The position numbers and the translations under genes are program-made. A stretch of DNA of 64,000 bases from assembly GCF_000422785.1 (NCBI RefSeq), contig NZ_AUGS01000002.1:1-64000 (forward strand), in the 5' to 3' direction. A model generated the notes under the pieces. The model ran no database searches and was not told the origin of the DNA. It worked only from the letters and a program-made list of their open reading frames with translations. The stretch's first letter is position 1; each line of letters opens with the position of its first letter. Shown here one piece after another: positions 56,191-60,904 of the stretch. This DNA is from Pseudovibrio exalbescens DSM 16456 (GTDB lineage: Bacteria > Pseudomonadota > Alphaproteobacteria > Rhizobiales > Stappiaceae).

Positions 56191-56664
56191 ATGATGAAAC
56201 ACTTATCTATCTGTAATAAAACACTTTTCTTGAATATCTCATCTTTGGTGATTCTATTTTTGTTTGCACCCGCCCTGTATTCGGGTGCAATCCCGTCAGC
56301 ATCACAAAGCTTAGGTGTTTTTGCTCATCTAAGCTATTTTGCTATCCTGACCTGCGCCCTGTTCAGATTTTTCAATCACAAGATCGTTCCAACCTTTCTG
56401 ACAGGTTGTTGTCTTGCAATTCTCGGCGAAGCACTTGGCGCGCTATTTGGGCTTCAAGAGCCGAAGATCATGATGATTGTTGCTGCAGGTTTAGGGGTGA
56501 CTTGCGCTTGCTCACTGATGGGACTGATGAGCGCTGATAGTCGGGCTTTGCAACGATATGCGGTACCAGGTAACCACGATCATCGTGCACGCCGGATATC
56601 TGATCCGCTGAGCGGCCGCTTCAGGTTGATCCCATGTGAAAAGCGATCGACGTTGCAGTTCTAA
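56191..56664 (+). CDS. Orphan membrane protein inserted in the rimM-trmD junction (157 aa)
   Basis: A protein I cannot identify with certainty. It has about four hydrophobic spans (about 12-31, 40-60, 65-85 and 92-112), and the arrangement FAHLSYFAILT, ILGEALGALFG and KIMMIVAAGLGV is weakly reminiscent of VanZ-like proteins. The last 45 residues are polar, run over the 3' end of rimM and do not look like the rest. Base use is clearly more AT-rich than the flanks. Its stop TAA interlocks with the rimM stop in CTAA. It lies opposite to its neighbours inside a ribosomal operon, so it may be a recent insertion, or a partial or decaying gene. Confidence 0.45.
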   Translation: MMKHLSICNKTLFLNISSLVILFLFAPALYSGAIPSASQSLGVFAHLSYFAILTCALFRFFNHKIVPTFLTGCCLAILGEALGALFGLQEPKIMMIVAAGLGVTCACSLMGLMSADSRALQRYAVPGNHDHRARRISDPLSGRFRLIPCEKRSTLQF

Positions 56665-57212
56665 TTGCCGGCCGTTTCGTCTTCAGGTTCCCCGTCCTCA
56701 AAGAAACCGAGGGGCGGTTCAATATAGATGAGGCCATTTTCAAGATCGATCTCGGGAACCGTTTGTCTGTCAAATGGGAAGATAACAGTCTTTCCCGAGC
56801 GGTCGCGTACCTCAATCAAGTCTCCCGCGCCAAAGTTTAACAGCGCGATCACGGTGCCATAATCGGTGCCGTCTCGTCCTTGGGTGGGTAACCCGATCAA
56901 ATCAGAATGATAAAATTCATCCGCATCTTCCGGCGCAGGTAGCCGTTCGCGCGGGATGTAAAGCTTGACGCCATTCAGTGCTTCAGCTTCATTCCGGTCG
57001 TTCACACCTTCAAACTTGGTAATAACCACGTTCTTTTGCAGGCGTGCACGTTTGACTTTGAACTTGCGACTGCCGTCTTCTGTTTCCAGCTTGCCGTAGT
57101 CGGTGAAGGAGAGCGGATCATCCCCAAATGGTTTGACCCGCACCTCCCCCTTGATGCCATGTGCGGCGCCAATCTGTGCCATTAGAATACGTTTACCGGC
57201 GTCAGGTGCCAT
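56661..57212 (-). CDS. rimM: Ribosome maturation factor RimM
   Basis: RimM binds S19 and helps 30S head maturation. ILMAQIGAAHGIKGEVRV is the conserved start, followed by the PRC-barrel domain (YHSDLIGLPTQGRDGTDYGTVIALLNFGAGDLIEVR and VIFPFDRQTVPEIDL). ATG 57212 (183 residues) is chosen over TTG 57221; GGAG lies 11 bases upstream. It follows rpsP on the minus strand, but its usual downstream partner trmD is displaced by the 56191-56664 gene. Confidence 0.95.
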   Translation of the reverse strand: MAPDAGKRILMAQIGAAHGIKGEVRVKPFGDDPLSFTDYGKLETEDGSRKFKVKRARLQKNVVITKFEGVNDRNEAEALNGVKLYIPRERLPAPEDADEFYHSDLIGLPTQGRDGTDYGTVIALLNFGAGDLIEVRDRSGKTVIFPFDRQTVPEIDLENGLIYIEPPLGFFEDGEPEDETAGN

Positions 57213-57247
57213 GAATTCCAAAACTCCGCACAGACTGGTTGCAACTA

Positions 57248-57640
57248 TTATTCGGAAGCTTCAGCTTCGCCAGCAGCAGCTTCTTCAGCTGCAGCCTTGG
57301 CTTCAGCTTCGCGAGCCAGCTTCTCGTCCAGACGCTCCTGAGCCTTCTTGCCCAGCTTCGCCTTGTTTGGATTGTTGCGTGGCTCACGCTTCAGGATGCC
57401 AGCAGCATCAAGGAAGCGATGAACGCGGTCGGTTGGCTGAGCGCCATTGCCGAGCCAATGCTTGATGCGCTCTTCGTCAAGTTCCACGCGCTTTTCATCA
57501 GCCTTTGGCAGCATTGGGTTGTAGCGACCTACAACTTCCAGAAAACGACCATCACGCGGTGCGCGTTCGTCAGCAACAACAATGCGGTAGAAAGGACGCT
57601 TTTTTGCGCCACCGCGAGCGAGACGGATTTTCGTAGCCAT
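57248..57640 (-). CDS. rpsP: Ribosomal protein S16
   Basis: S16 is a 30S subunit protein. The core [24 protein letters not shown] and [16 protein letters not shown] are conserved, and the following [26 protein letters not shown] is the family C-terminal region. The protein is extended by about 45 Ala/Glu/Lys-rich residues to 130 in all, as in other Hyphomicrobiales. It lies 11 bp after the chorismate mutase gene. Confidence 0.96.
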
Positions 57641-57651
57641 TTTTTATTCTC

Positions 57652-57975
57652 CTAGTAATCAGTTTTGCCGCGGTCCGCAGCAATGGCTTCATGATGTCGA
57701 ATGACTTCTTTGACGATGAAGTTCAGGAACTTCTCCGCAAAATCAGGATCCAGATTGGCGTCGGCAGCCAGACGGCGCAGACGTTCGATCTGTAATTTTT
57801 CTCGGGCTGGATCAGCTGGTGGAAGATCGTGAGCCGCTTTCAACTCGCCAACGGCCTTGGTACAACGGAACCGCTCCGCAAGCATGTGAACCAGCGCCGC
57901 ATCGATGTTGTCGATGCTGGCACGCAAAGATCCGAGCACCTCTGAGGCGCGTTCTGTATCTTGGGTAGTGCTCAC
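57652..57975 (-). CDS. AroQ-type chorismate mutase
   Basis: The 107-residue protein fits the AroQ all-helical chorismate mutase fold. LRASIDNIDAALVHMLAERF (first helix, Arg and Asp), RCTKAVGELKAAHDLPPADPARE (Lys and Arg) and FLNFIVKEVIRHHEAIAA (last helix with Glu/Gln position) hold the catalytic positions. It would make prephenate for Phe and Tyr. The start is GTG 57975, which directly follows the ffh TAA stop without spacing, so coupled translation is likely. It lies in the ffh-rpsP-rimM operon, as in other Hyphomicrobiales. Confidence 0.9.
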   Translation of the reverse strand: MSTTQDTERASEVLGSLRASIDNIDAALVHMLAERFRCTKAVGELKAAHDLPPADPAREKLQIERLRRLAADANLDPDFAEKFLNFIVKEVIRHHEAIAADRGKTDY

Positions 57976-59532
57976 TTACTTCTTCCCCTTGCCTAGCCCT
58001 GGCAAACCGGACCCACCGCCCAATCCGGGCAGCTTTGGTCCACCGGCACCCGGCAGACCACCGGGGAGTCCTTGCCCCGGCAATCCTTGTGGCAAATCCA
58101 TTCCGCCCGGCATCTGACCGGACTTGGCCATCTGCTCCAGTTGCTTGGGGTCGATGTTGGGCATACCGCCGCCCATGCCGGGCATGCCGCCACCCATGGC
58201 ACCCATCATCTTGCCAAGCATACCCTTGCCTTTGCCCTTACCCATGGCCTTCATCATGTCAGCCATCTGGCGATGCATCTTCAAGAGCTTGTTGACTTCC
58301 GCCACCTGCACACCGGCACCAGCAGCAATACGCTTTTTCCGGCTGGCCTTGAGAAGCTCCGGCTTGGCACGTTCCTTTTTTGTCATGGACTGAATGATCG
58401 CAACCTGTCGCTTGAACATCTTTTCATCGATGTTCGCAGCTTCCATTTGCTTTTTCATCTTGCCCACGCCAGGCATCATCCCCATCAGGCCGGACATACC
58501 GCCCATCTTCTCCATTTGTTGGAGCTGATCTTTCAGATCATTGAGGTCGAAATGGCCCTTCTGCATCTTCTTGGCCATTTCAGCTGCTTTTTCAGCATCA
58601 ATGGCTTCTGAAGCTTTCTCCACGAGCGACACGATATCGCCCATGCCCAGAATACGATCTGCGATGCGCTTGGGATGGAAATCTTCCAGATCCTCGGCTT
58701 TTTCACCTGTACCGATCAACTTGATCGGCTGGCCGGTTACCGCACGCATGGACAGGGCCGCACCACCGCGACCGTCACCATCCATACGGGTGAGCATGAT
58801 CCCCGTTATGCCAACACGTTCATTAAAGCTCTTGGCCAGATTGACGGCATCCTGACCGGTGAGCGCATCGGCAACAAGCAAGATCTCATGAGGATTTGCC
58901 GCAGCTTTCACGTCAGCCATCTCAACCATGAGCGGCTCATCAACATGGGTGCGGCCCGCCGTATCCAGCATGACCACATCATAACCGCCCAGCCGTGCTG
59001 CATTCATGGCCCGCTTGGCAATGTCCACGGGCTGCTGGCCTTCGATGATCGGCAATGTGTCAACGCCGTTCTGTTCACCCAAGACCTTCAGCTGCTCTTG
59101 AGCGGCCGGTCGGCGGGTATCCAGGGAGGCCATCAACACCTTGCGCTTGTCGCGCTGGGTCAAACGACGCGCTATCTTGCCGGTGGCTGTGGTTTTACCC
59201 GCACCCTGCAGGCCCACCATCATGATGCAAACCGGCGCAGGCGCATTCAGGTCAATCGGCTGGCTGTCTGTGCCAAGCATCTCCACCAGTTGATCATGGA
59301 CGATCTTGACGACCATCTGACCAGGCTTGATGGATTTGACGACTTCTGCGCCGACCGCGCGGTTGCGCACTTTGTCGGTAAAGGAACGCACAGTTGGCAG
59401 CGCCACATCGGCCTCGATGAGGGCACGGCGCACTTCGCGCAGCGCTTCATTCACATCGGCTTCTGACAAGGCACCGCGCTTGGTCAGCTTATCAAGAATA
59501 CCGCCCAGGCGATCTGACAGGTTATCGAACAT
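57976..59532 (-). CDS. ffh: Signal recognition particle protein Ffh
   Basis: Ffh is the SRP54 GTPase that targets nascent membrane proteins to FtsY. The N domain (about 1-90) is followed by the G domain with P-loop GLQGAGKTTATGK, DTAGRTHVDEPLM (G3), LTRMDGDGRGGAAL (G4) and GTGEKAEDLEDFHP. The M domain (about 325-440) is Met-rich for signal sequence binding. The C-terminal 80 residues are Gly/Met/Pro-rich and extended beyond the E. coli protein, a feature common in alphaproteobacteria. ATG 59532 has GAAGGAACG upstream. The leader of this operon holds the candidate RNA at 59651-59760. Confidence 0.97.
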   Translation of the reverse strand: MFDNLSDRLGGILDKLTKRGALSEADVNEALREVRRALIEADVALPTVRSFTDKVRNRAVGAEVVKSIKPGQMVVKIVHDQLVEMLGTDSQPIDLNAPAPVCIMMVGLQGAGKTTATGKIARRLTQRDKRKVLMASLDTRRPAAQEQLKVLGEQNGVDTLPIIEGQQPVDIAKRAMNAARLGGYDVVMLDTAGRTHVDEPLMVEMADVKAAANPHEILLVADALTGQDAVNLAKSFNERVGITGIMLTRMDGDGRGGAALSMRAVTGQPIKLIGTGEKAEDLEDFHPKRIADRILGMGDIVSLVEKASEAIDAEKAAEMAKKMQKGHFDLNDLKDQLQQMEKMGGMSGLMGMMPGVGKMKKQMEAANIDEKMFKRQVAIIQSMTKKERAKPELLKASRKKRIAAGAGVQVAEVNKLLKMHRQMADMMKAMGKGKGKGMLGKMMGAMGGGMPGMGGGMPNIDPKQLEQMAKSGQMPGGMDLPQGLPGQGLPGGLPGAGGPKLPGLGGGSGLPGLGKGKK

Positions 59533-59923
59533 AGCGTTCCTTCAAAATCTTCATTCGGTTTCAAGGTCGGGCCATCCTAAACCCATCACCCTGCTCCGCT
59601 CCATAGCAGATGTCACCGTTTTGGCATGCATACATCGTTGTACGCATAGCAAAAAAGCACCCGAGGGCGCATCGCGCTGTCGGGTGTTGACCTCCGGGAT
59701 CTCTTTATACCTTTTCGGGTCCCGGTCAGTTGCTCCAGTGACATACATGTACGGAGTTGCAGATGACTTAGTTGATGAAAGCAGTGGAGTCAAGCATCTA
59801 TGCGGAAAGCCGCCATTAAAGGGAACATTCAGCAGGCTTGGTGAATTTCGGTGGCCAGTCTCTGGTCTTGGCTAAATACGTAATTACACATAATGTTGCC
59901 GCGACATGATGAAGAGGTTTAGC
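59533..59923. other. 391-bp divergent region between ffh and the hydrolase gene
   Basis: It contains a minus-strand promoter-transcript-terminator unit (59651-59794), which is listed separately. Between the terminator and ffh I see no strong second promoter, only a Shine-Dalgarno-like GAAGGAACG before the ATG. A minus-strand frame (59551-59793) overlaps the unit and has no family match. Confidence 0.5.
59651..59760 (-). ncRNA. Candidate ~110-nt small RNA or attenuated leader upstream of ffh
   Basis: On the minus strand a CTTGAC -35 (59794-59789), a 17-base spacer and a CTAAGT -10 (59771-59766) are followed by a region with three stem-loops. CTCC/GGAG is near the 5' end, CCGGGA/TCCCGG lies in the middle, and the perfect CACCCGA/TCGGGTG stem (59686-59658) runs into six Ts (59656-59651). 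The transcript would start near 59760 and be about 110 nt long. No protein-coding role is visible. It could be a stand-alone small RNA or the leader of the ffh operon controlled by attenuation. It does not contain the conserved core of SRP RNA, and I do not recognise it as 6S RNA. Confidence 0.5.
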
Positions 59924-60904
59924 ATGCGCAACATTCTTCTGGTTTTTGTTACGAGCATCATTGCTGTGGTTGCAATTTATTTTCTGGGTCCGCGCGCGTC
60001 AGACCGCGCCAGTGTTTCTTTCAATCCCTCCGGAATAGGAGAGGATCTTGACACCTACCTGGCACAAAAGGAAAGCCGCGTGCCGGATATCCGAGAAGGG
60101 CTCCAAAAAGAAATCGTTTGGGCCGATCCGCAAACCAAGGAAAAAACGGCCTACTCCATTGTCTACATTCACGGTTTTTCAGCCAGCAAAGAAGAAATTC
60201 GACCGATCCCGGACCGCGTGGCAGATCGGCTTCAGGCCAATCTTTATTACACCCGGCTTCAAGGACACGGACGCACAGGCGACGCGATGGCAGAAGGCAC
60301 CCTGTCTGGCTGGCTGAATGACGTGGCCGAAGCCCTCACCATTGGTCGGCGCATCGGCGACAAAACAATAGTCATCGCCACCTCTACCGGCGCTACCCTC
60401 GCCGCATGGGGCAGCCTGAGTCACTCTGACATGATGGCGGGAACGCACGCCATGGTGCTGTTTTCGCCTAACTTTGGTCCCAACGCGGTCGGTTCCTTCC
60501 TCCTCGCCGCACCTTTCGCCGAACATTTTGTTCCTTGGCTGTTAGGTCCAACCTACGGCACCAATGCGGGAGCCTCTGCAAAGGAAGACCACGCCTGGAC
60601 ACTCAGCTACGCCTCCAAGGCCCTGATTCCAATGGCCGCAGCCGTGGACGCGGTAAACCGTCTCGACCCGAGCACCAACACCATTCCGACGCTGTTTATC
60701 TACGCAATGGAAGACAAGACCGTCGACGCGGCCAAAACCGAAACAGTTTATGAGGCGTGGGCAGAACCGAAATCCCGTATTCTGATTGAAGCCTCAGGTG
60801 ACCCGAATTTCCATGTGAATGCCGGTGATATCATCAGCCCCGAAAACAACGACAGCGTCACCAACGATATTCTTGAATGGCTCAAATCCCTGGGCTTGAG
60901 CTGA
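59924..60904 (+). CDS. Membrane-anchored alpha/beta hydrolase
   Basis: A 326-residue protein with an N-terminal membrane anchor or signal (MRNILLVFVTSIIAVVAIYF). The hydrolase core shows SIVYIHGFSASKEEI (oxyanion loop with HGF), the nucleophile elbow IATSTGATLA (Ser flanked by Thr instead of the usual GxSxG) and FIYAMEDKTVDA near the acid. His is expected in NFHVNAGDI. The atypical elbow resembles the alphaproteobacterial carboxylesterase/lysophospholipase-like group. ATG 59924 has GAGGTTTAGC upstream, a better site than ATG 59906. The substrate is unknown. Confidence 0.85.
   Translation: MRNILLVFVTSIIAVVAIYFLGPRASDRASVSFNPSGIGEDLDTYLAQKESRVPDIREGLQKEIVWADPQTKEKTAYSIVYIHGFSASKEEIRPIPDRVADRLQANLYYTRLQGHGRTGDAMAEGTLSGWLNDVAEALTIGRRIGDKTIVIATSTGATLAAWGSLSHSDMMAGTHAMVLFSPNFGPNAVGSFLLAAPFAEHFVPWLLGPTYGTNAGASAKEDHAWTLSYASKALIPMAAAVDAVNRLDPSTNTIPTLFIYAMEDKTVDAAKTETVYEAWAEPKSRILIEASGDPNFHVNAGDIISPENNDSVTNDILEWLKSLGLS

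Follow-up and report, generated by a model that had tools for sequence, protein, structure and literature searches.

The alphaproteobacterial ffh motif RNA keeps company with rpsP and may be a leader for autoregulation by ribosomal protein bS16

The RNA that precedes the ffh-chorismate mutase-rpsP-rimM operon of Pseudovibrio exalbescens is a member of a known family, Rfam RF01793 (the ffh motif). Judged from sequence comparison, it is on balance probably a cis-acting leader through which ribosomal protein bS16 regulates its own operon. New here is which gene the element stays with, i.e., rpsP. A wider reading is possible, and we put it forward with more reserve: the ffh motif may be misnamed and may be a class-wide bS16 autoregulatory leader of Alphaproteobacteria, with its ligand kept through loss of the whole signal recognition particle (SRP), a read-out that depends on the lineage, and a U-run gain that made the Pseudovibrio version a terminator. 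Coordinates refer to the window, i.e., the whole 64,000-nucleotide stretch of P. exalbescens DNA analyzed; the leader and its operon are on the minus strand.

Results

The leader RNA belongs to the RF01793 family

A preliminary description of this DNA, made from the sequence alone, had not recognized the RNA. We found a full-length match to Rfam RF01793 'ffh' RNA at 59650-59701 (-), which scored 70.4 bits against a gathering cut-off of 35, spanned model positions 1-52 of 52 and contained the bulged hairpin with two conserved cytosines that marks the family. RF01793 was the sole Rfam family above cut-off in the 64 kb, which argues against 4.5S RNA or any other Rfam family; mir-202, with 20.7 bits against a cut-off of 51, was taken as a chance match. 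The whole P. exalbescens genome has one copy. The covariance search in relatives that had been suggested as a check found RF01793 in 60 of 61 genomes from genus, family and order, the own genome included. Ffh was downstream within the stretch initially inspected in 59 of these 60 loci, and in the sixtieth it lies 816 nt downstream.

Meyer et al. 2009 (PMC2704228) reported the ffh motif in Pelagibacter, Rhodobacterales, Sphingomonadales and Rhizobiales; in the sections available, function is left open and possible regulation of ffh is raised. According to the parts at hand of Valverde et al. 2008 (PMC2573895), the Sinorhizobium meliloti RNA sm5, about 120 nt long, is located in the dapF<ffh> intergenic region, has a sigma70 promoter and a predicted Rho-independent terminator, and gave a microarray signal; a further table entry reads 'not done'. 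An excerpt of a Bartonella study names an expressed 'ffH leader RNA'. The later open-licence papers that we found use ffh motif, in the passages seen, merely as a label, and our search of the open-licence PMC literature found no published link of the motif to S16 or rpsP.

Promoter, leader and operon

After the leader, the gene order is ffh, encoding the SRP GTPase (57976-59532, -; PF00448, PF02978, PF02881), chorismate mutase (57652-57975, -; PF01817), rpsP, encoding bS16, the proposed ligand (57248-57640, -; PF00886), and rimM (56661-57221, -; PF01782), given here as an open frame whose true start may be inside. A gap follows, and then trmD and rplS. Between rimM and trmD there is an open frame on the opposite strand (56191-56664, +) with hydrophobic stretches and no Pfam match. 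Because this frame intervenes, trmD-rplS may be outside the ffh-rpsP transcript in P. exalbescens. In Rhizobium sp. NLR16a, the block is found on a 489-kb plasmid (locus L227, NZ_CP072868.1, 210481-218542) in the order ftsY-mtaB-dapF / element-ffh-chorismate mutase-rpsP-rimM-trmD. A table for Mesorhizobium huakuii, in the part available, lists RF01793 for an intergenic region with the label Pb, which is apparently a plasmid. Matches in the plasmid collection numbered six, on replicons of 0.49-4.6 Mb. We rejected a plasmid copy away from ffh, as both of the matches that were opened carry the ffh-rpsP operon.

The sigma70-type promoter (59766-59794, -) was as previously described, with CTTGAC at 59794-59789, a 17-base spacer and CTAAGT at 59771-59766. 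Of the 37 loci of the family, Stappiaceae, 36 had TTGAC 100-110 nt 5' of the last hairpin; in the remaining one (L021), a TTGAC is visible at the customary place and a nearer one is also present. A scan of 59300-60200 gave no promoter at its sigma-70 threshold, hence the promoter call rests on conservation. In the same interval, a simple scan returned four terminator-like sites where 1.1 were expected, one of them a version of the last hairpin. From the promoter to this terminator-like hairpin with its six Ts, the leader measures about 110 nt. The 7-bp terminator stem and the T-run were confirmed in the sequence, as was the distance of 119 nt between the end of the T-run and the ffh ATG (59532). 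A convincing second promoter between terminator and ffh had not been seen before. Nor did we find a conserved one when 16 Pseudovibrio spacers were compared by eye; only a T-run/GCTATG block and a AAGGAACG...ATG block were prominent. We also considered whether a TATAAA-like conserved block in stem-loop 2 could serve as another promoter and rejected this, the spacing of the block to a TGAC block being about 14 (by eye) and thus too short. The folding energy of the whole leader was unremarkable (z -1.74; 10 of 200 shuffles folded as well), so that the signal of the leader is carried by conservation.

A covarying hairpin with an almost invariant C.C mismatch

Three stem-loops had been proposed, and the three fared differently. 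Stem-loop 3 (59658-59686, -) is the conserved core. Its 7-bp outer stem CACCCGA/TCGGGTG (59686-59658) encloses, beyond a C.C mismatch and an A.C neighbour, a 4-bp inner stem, with a folding energy of -18.2 kcal/mol. Among 145 parsed hairpin loci, the C.C mismatch was present in 144; the position beside it was A.C in 96, a standard pair in 31, A.A in 15 and other in 3. In the non-redundant alignment A1 (76 of 78 prepared rows, L055 and L060 omitted), 99.6% of the stem cells were paired and 10 of 11 stem pairs showed two-sided change. The covariation score was 0.449 for the structure as given, i.e., with the position beside C.C counted as a twelfth pair, compared with 0.152 for shuffled and at most 0.089 for slid versions.

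Stem-loop 2 (59689-59727, -) also held up. Its consensus fold pairs GACCGGGA ... TCCCGGAGGTC with a AAAGGTATAAAGA loop, and double changes were found at four pairs in the family alignment A2 (24 of 25 prepared rows, L053 omitted). Its loop GGTNTAAAGA is almost invariant across the family. Stem-loop 1 was absent from the family consensus fold and we rejected it as a conserved structure. A lack of compensatory changes in the stems, named beforehand as the result that would speak against the RNA, was hence not observed for the last two stems. Among the parsed hairpin loci, L225 and L185 are the same place and were counted once.

The six-T run 3' of stem-loop 3 (59651-59656, -) is a terminator feature specific to Pseudovibrio. 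Six Ts after the hairpin were found in the window, and 15 of the 16 loci of the genus have them; stem and U-run together were not kept across the family, with five or more Ts in just 1 of 21 other family loci. In wider sets, runs of at least five Ts occurred in 21 of 60 order loci and 15 of 71 class loci. As only one of the other family loci has such a run, the hairpin is not conserved as an intrinsic terminator, and the U-run looks like a gain or retention in Pseudovibrio. The terminator U-run is thus a Pseudovibrio trait and not the conserved purpose of the hairpin, and classical attenuation therefore cannot be the general mechanism.

More generally, a U-rich stretch and a GUUUG-like block are found 3' of the hairpin, the GUUUG-like block being beyond the end of the Rfam match. 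Just 5' of stem-loop 3, a small local hairpin reached a score of 10 or more in 31 of 68 non-redundant loci and was hence enriched compared with shuffled sequences (mean 14.4, maximum 24 in 200 shuffles); it is outside the covariance model R1 described below.

Across the class the element is upstream of rpsP

To follow the element beyond the order, we used a broader covariance model, R1. In the window it matched the extended element at 59643-59699 (-) over 57 positions (64.7 bits, E 2.3e-19), the window's own sequence being one of its training rows, and the own genome had this single match. R1 was run genome-wide with stricter filters and without control genomes, and 19 candidates were scored per genome. 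As the search was genome-wide, the position of its matches is an independent check. R1 matched 184 of 289 alphaproteobacterial genomes; RF01793 matched 75 of the 289 at E <= 0.001, 59 of them above cut-off.

For the analysis of loci, 150 places were listed from the 184 matching genomes. In 122 of these, the match was followed by ffh and then rpsP. In 15, rpsP was downstream and ffh was not located, in 6 rpsP came first without ffh, in 4 ffh was present with rpsP not seen, and in 3 the contig ended. Altogether, 147 of the 150 listed matches were on the same strand upstream of ffh and/or rpsP, and the remaining three were at contig ends. rpsP itself was downstream on the same strand in 143; the other seven were six contig ends and genome G290. 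Three of the four listed matches with ffh and no visible rpsP reach contig ends and the fourth is G290, where, on the matching contig, ffh is cut short and antisense RecF/SMC-like sequence takes over; this contig is apparently chimeric, and no rpsP was found in the assembly. For two contig-end matches (G067:C63 and G232:C30), the listed ffh-rpsP of the genome is on another contig, and in G067 a second match precedes ffh on that contig. Among the listed matches whose sequence continues, no case was seen in which rpsP was elsewhere.

The match often ends close to the first gene. In 68 of 91 class-sample loci and in 7 of 59 loci of the own order, its end was at most 60 nt away from the start of ffh; at most 20 nt separated the two in 17 of 91 and 1 of 59, respectively. 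R1 gave no match in 105 of the 289 genomes. Since rpsP was found in 272 of the 289, no element was detected in at least 88 rpsP-bearing genomes, and other Ffh-less genomes are among them.

Exceptional genomes separate ffh from rpsP

As most genomes of the class have ffh and rpsP close together, the case for S16 rests on few exceptions. Among those that discriminate, one order is a strong case, and three further families, in which the element precedes rpsP without ffh, have weaker matches.

The strong case is the order of G109 (18 genomes: G109, G234, G330 and G349-G363), with genomes of about 1-1.4 Mb and a G+C content of 33-37% (stretches of four), which is at a guess HIMB59-like. RF01793 matched above cut-off in 14 of the 18, and in all 14 carriers the distance from the element to the downstream rpsP is 26-33 nt, without an intervening ffh; the other four show no rpsP in their assemblies. 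In the 18 genomes, we found no SRP GTPase above cut-off with either TIGR00959 or PF00448, the latter of which also covers FtsY. Each gave one partial sub-cut-off match, in G351. In control genomes, TIGR00959 matched 14 of 14 (10 above cut-off) and PF00448 14 of 14 (all 14 above). 4.5S RNA (RF00169) was found in 0 of 18 compared with 11 of 14 controls, 9 of them above cut-off. A search with a single Ffh protein gave no match in the order either; it had no positive control, so we relied on the curated models. Completeness reaches 90% or more in only 6 of the 18 assemblies, and these six also had no match to SRP GTPase or 4.5S RNA. The order is hence apparently an SRP-less bacterial order. Within it, both partners have changed in a compensatory way in two stem pairs (G-C/A-U and C-G/U-A; 14 loci, 9 distinct), from which we conclude that selection on the hairpin continues without ffh. 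Runs of at least five Ts follow the hairpin in 4 of the 14 loci.

Four further genomes point in the same direction. In G149, the element is 54 nt before rpsP, and ffh is on another contig behind a GcrA gene, with no R1 match there. In G342, it is 284 nt before rpsP; the stretch fetched contains no ffh, and an Ffh exists in the genome at a place that is not listed. RF01793 scored 25.1 bits in G149 and 21.8 bits in G342 against the cut-off of 35, in the right place and on the right strand. In G128 and G248, the element precedes rpsP and the listed Ffh E-values (1.5e-4 and 7.4e-24) are far weaker than those of a full Ffh. RF01793 gave no match in either, hence these two are the weakest of the exceptional cases. 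Rows of G149, G128 and G248 had gone into the training of R1, which makes its matches in these three genomes non-independent; G342 was outside the training set.

The reverse arrangement is found in G206 and G073, which belong to one family. Here the order is element-ffh-rpsP and tblastn found no rimM, trmD or rplS behind rpsP; in G073, the next gene encodes a DUF502 protein. rpsP is the only gene common to the ffh-less and the rimM-less operons. The preliminary description had tied the RNA to ffh; the element does stand upstream of ffh, and the comparison points to rpsP.

We also searched the surroundings of rpsP for the element in 16 genomes, the majority picked for a missing Ffh or a missing ffh-rpsP link. 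R1 matched in these regions only in G149, G128 and G248; a hit in G080 was at chance level, and the genome-wide search gave no R1 match in this genome, which has ffh and rpsP on different contigs. Several other Ffh-less genomes likewise gave no R1 match around rpsP. With TIGR00959 at E <= 0.001, 11 of the 289 alphaproteobacterial genomes had no match, three of them from the order of G109; the others are G077, G209, G114, G190, G292, G283, G314 and G346, some of which are incomplete or very small. In G135 the TIGR00959 match was weak (6.8e-4).

Discussion

Ribosomal protein leaders (r-leaders) have a conserved, covarying structure 5' of an operon that contains a ribosomal protein gene, and such a structure is what we found here; what defines them is binding and repression by the ribosomal protein of that operon. 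We propose autoregulation by S16 because the structured leader remains with a single ribosomal protein gene while the genes around it are lost or rearranged. In the mechanism that we infer, excess free bS16, made from rpsP on the same transcript, would bind the hairpin with the C.C mismatch, and binding would lower expression of the ffh-chorismate mutase-rpsP-rimM operon. For Pseudovibrio, we expect that the hairpin, once bound or stabilized, would act with the six Us to stop transcription some 110 nt from its start, and the product of termination would be a short RNA resembling an sRNA. In lineages without the U-run, in which the hairpin is near the start codon, the same binding might act on translation or on mRNA decay.

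The preliminary description had left the choice between a small RNA gene and attenuation in the operon leader, with a preference for the latter. Control in a leader is the part that stands: the cis-leader reading is well supported by the location of 147 of the 150 listed matches upstream of ffh or rpsP and by the missing conserved second promoter in the genus; classical attenuation does not stand as the general mechanism. We consider it improbable that the RNA is a stand-alone gene for a trans-acting small RNA and that ffh has another promoter. The RNA has its own promoter and, in Pseudovibrio, a terminator-like end, and both the microarray signal of S. meliloti sm5 (PMC2573895) and the expressed Bartonella RNA, as far as the excerpts go, would fit such a gene. 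Its location is not independent of the operon, however: none of the 150 listed matches is demonstrably away from it, and the own genome has one copy. Moreover, most loci lack a five-T run, the match ends at most 20 nt before ffh in 17 of the 91 class-sample loci, and the comparison of the 16 genus spacers by eye gave no conserved second promoter for ffh.

If the RNA is a cis-acting leader, the question is to what it answers. The family name suggests Ffh or SRP status, and in 126 of the 150 listed matches ffh is known to come first; regulation of ffh is also the possibility suggested in the available part of Meyer et al. 2009 (PMC2704228). We nevertheless regard this as very improbable, since an order without above-cut-off Ffh, FtsY or 4.5S RNA keeps the element before rpsP, with compensatory changes, and since in G149 the element stays at rpsP with ffh elsewhere. 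Harder to set apart is a leader that works through a factor from outside the operon, e.g., control by growth rate, a global RNA-binding protein or RNase-dependent mRNA stability, without S16 binding. The positional evidence is identical for both, as a global-factor leader serving the operon would give the same pattern as an S16 leader. Mimicry of an rRNA site, which is apparent in several known r-leaders and not in all, was not found either: in three alphaproteobacterial 16S stretches, the best R1 match had an E-value of 0.063, and a structure scan of the same stretches, which does not extend to three-dimensional mimicry, gave no C.C hairpin of the element's shape. Against such an outside factor, the element has stayed linked to one ribosomal protein gene in spite of several rearrangements, which autoregulation predicts, and the almost invariant mismatch suggests a specific binder. 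We therefore judge it rather unlikely, and prefer autoregulation by S16.

Should autoregulation by S16 hold true, annotations of the RNA as an sRNA or as a regulator of ffh would need correction. With a ligand named, the element can be put to a direct test that takes one protein and one RNA. In the portion available of a 2024 review, the regulation of the Escherichia coli rpsP, rimM, trmD, rplS operon stands without any information.

Compared with the ffh motif in the available sections of Meyer et al. 2009 (PMC2704228), the element described here is the same hairpin with two conserved cytosines in the same position before ffh. In contrast to that account, which is put in terms of ffh, we find it before rpsP when ffh is missing, and it extends past the published motif in its wider range (R1, 184 of 289 genomes) and by the GUUUG-like block downstream. 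It shares with sm5 of S. meliloti (PMC2573895) the intergenic place, the sigma70 promoter, the length class and the predicted terminator; the parts of that paper at hand list sm5 as a candidate sRNA gene, without a link to S16. The closest functional parallel comes from another phylum and is compared here by description only. Eckert et al. 2020 (PMC7247131) describe, in the text available, a Flavobacterial S16 r-leader candidate directly 5' of rpsP, usually with rimM; ffh has no occurrence in that main text. Both are RNAs 5' of rpsP for which S16 is the proposed ligand, and if our reading is true, Proteobacteria would gain an S16 leader of a kind so far proposed, in the open-licence literature as far as it was accessible, only in Flavobacteria.
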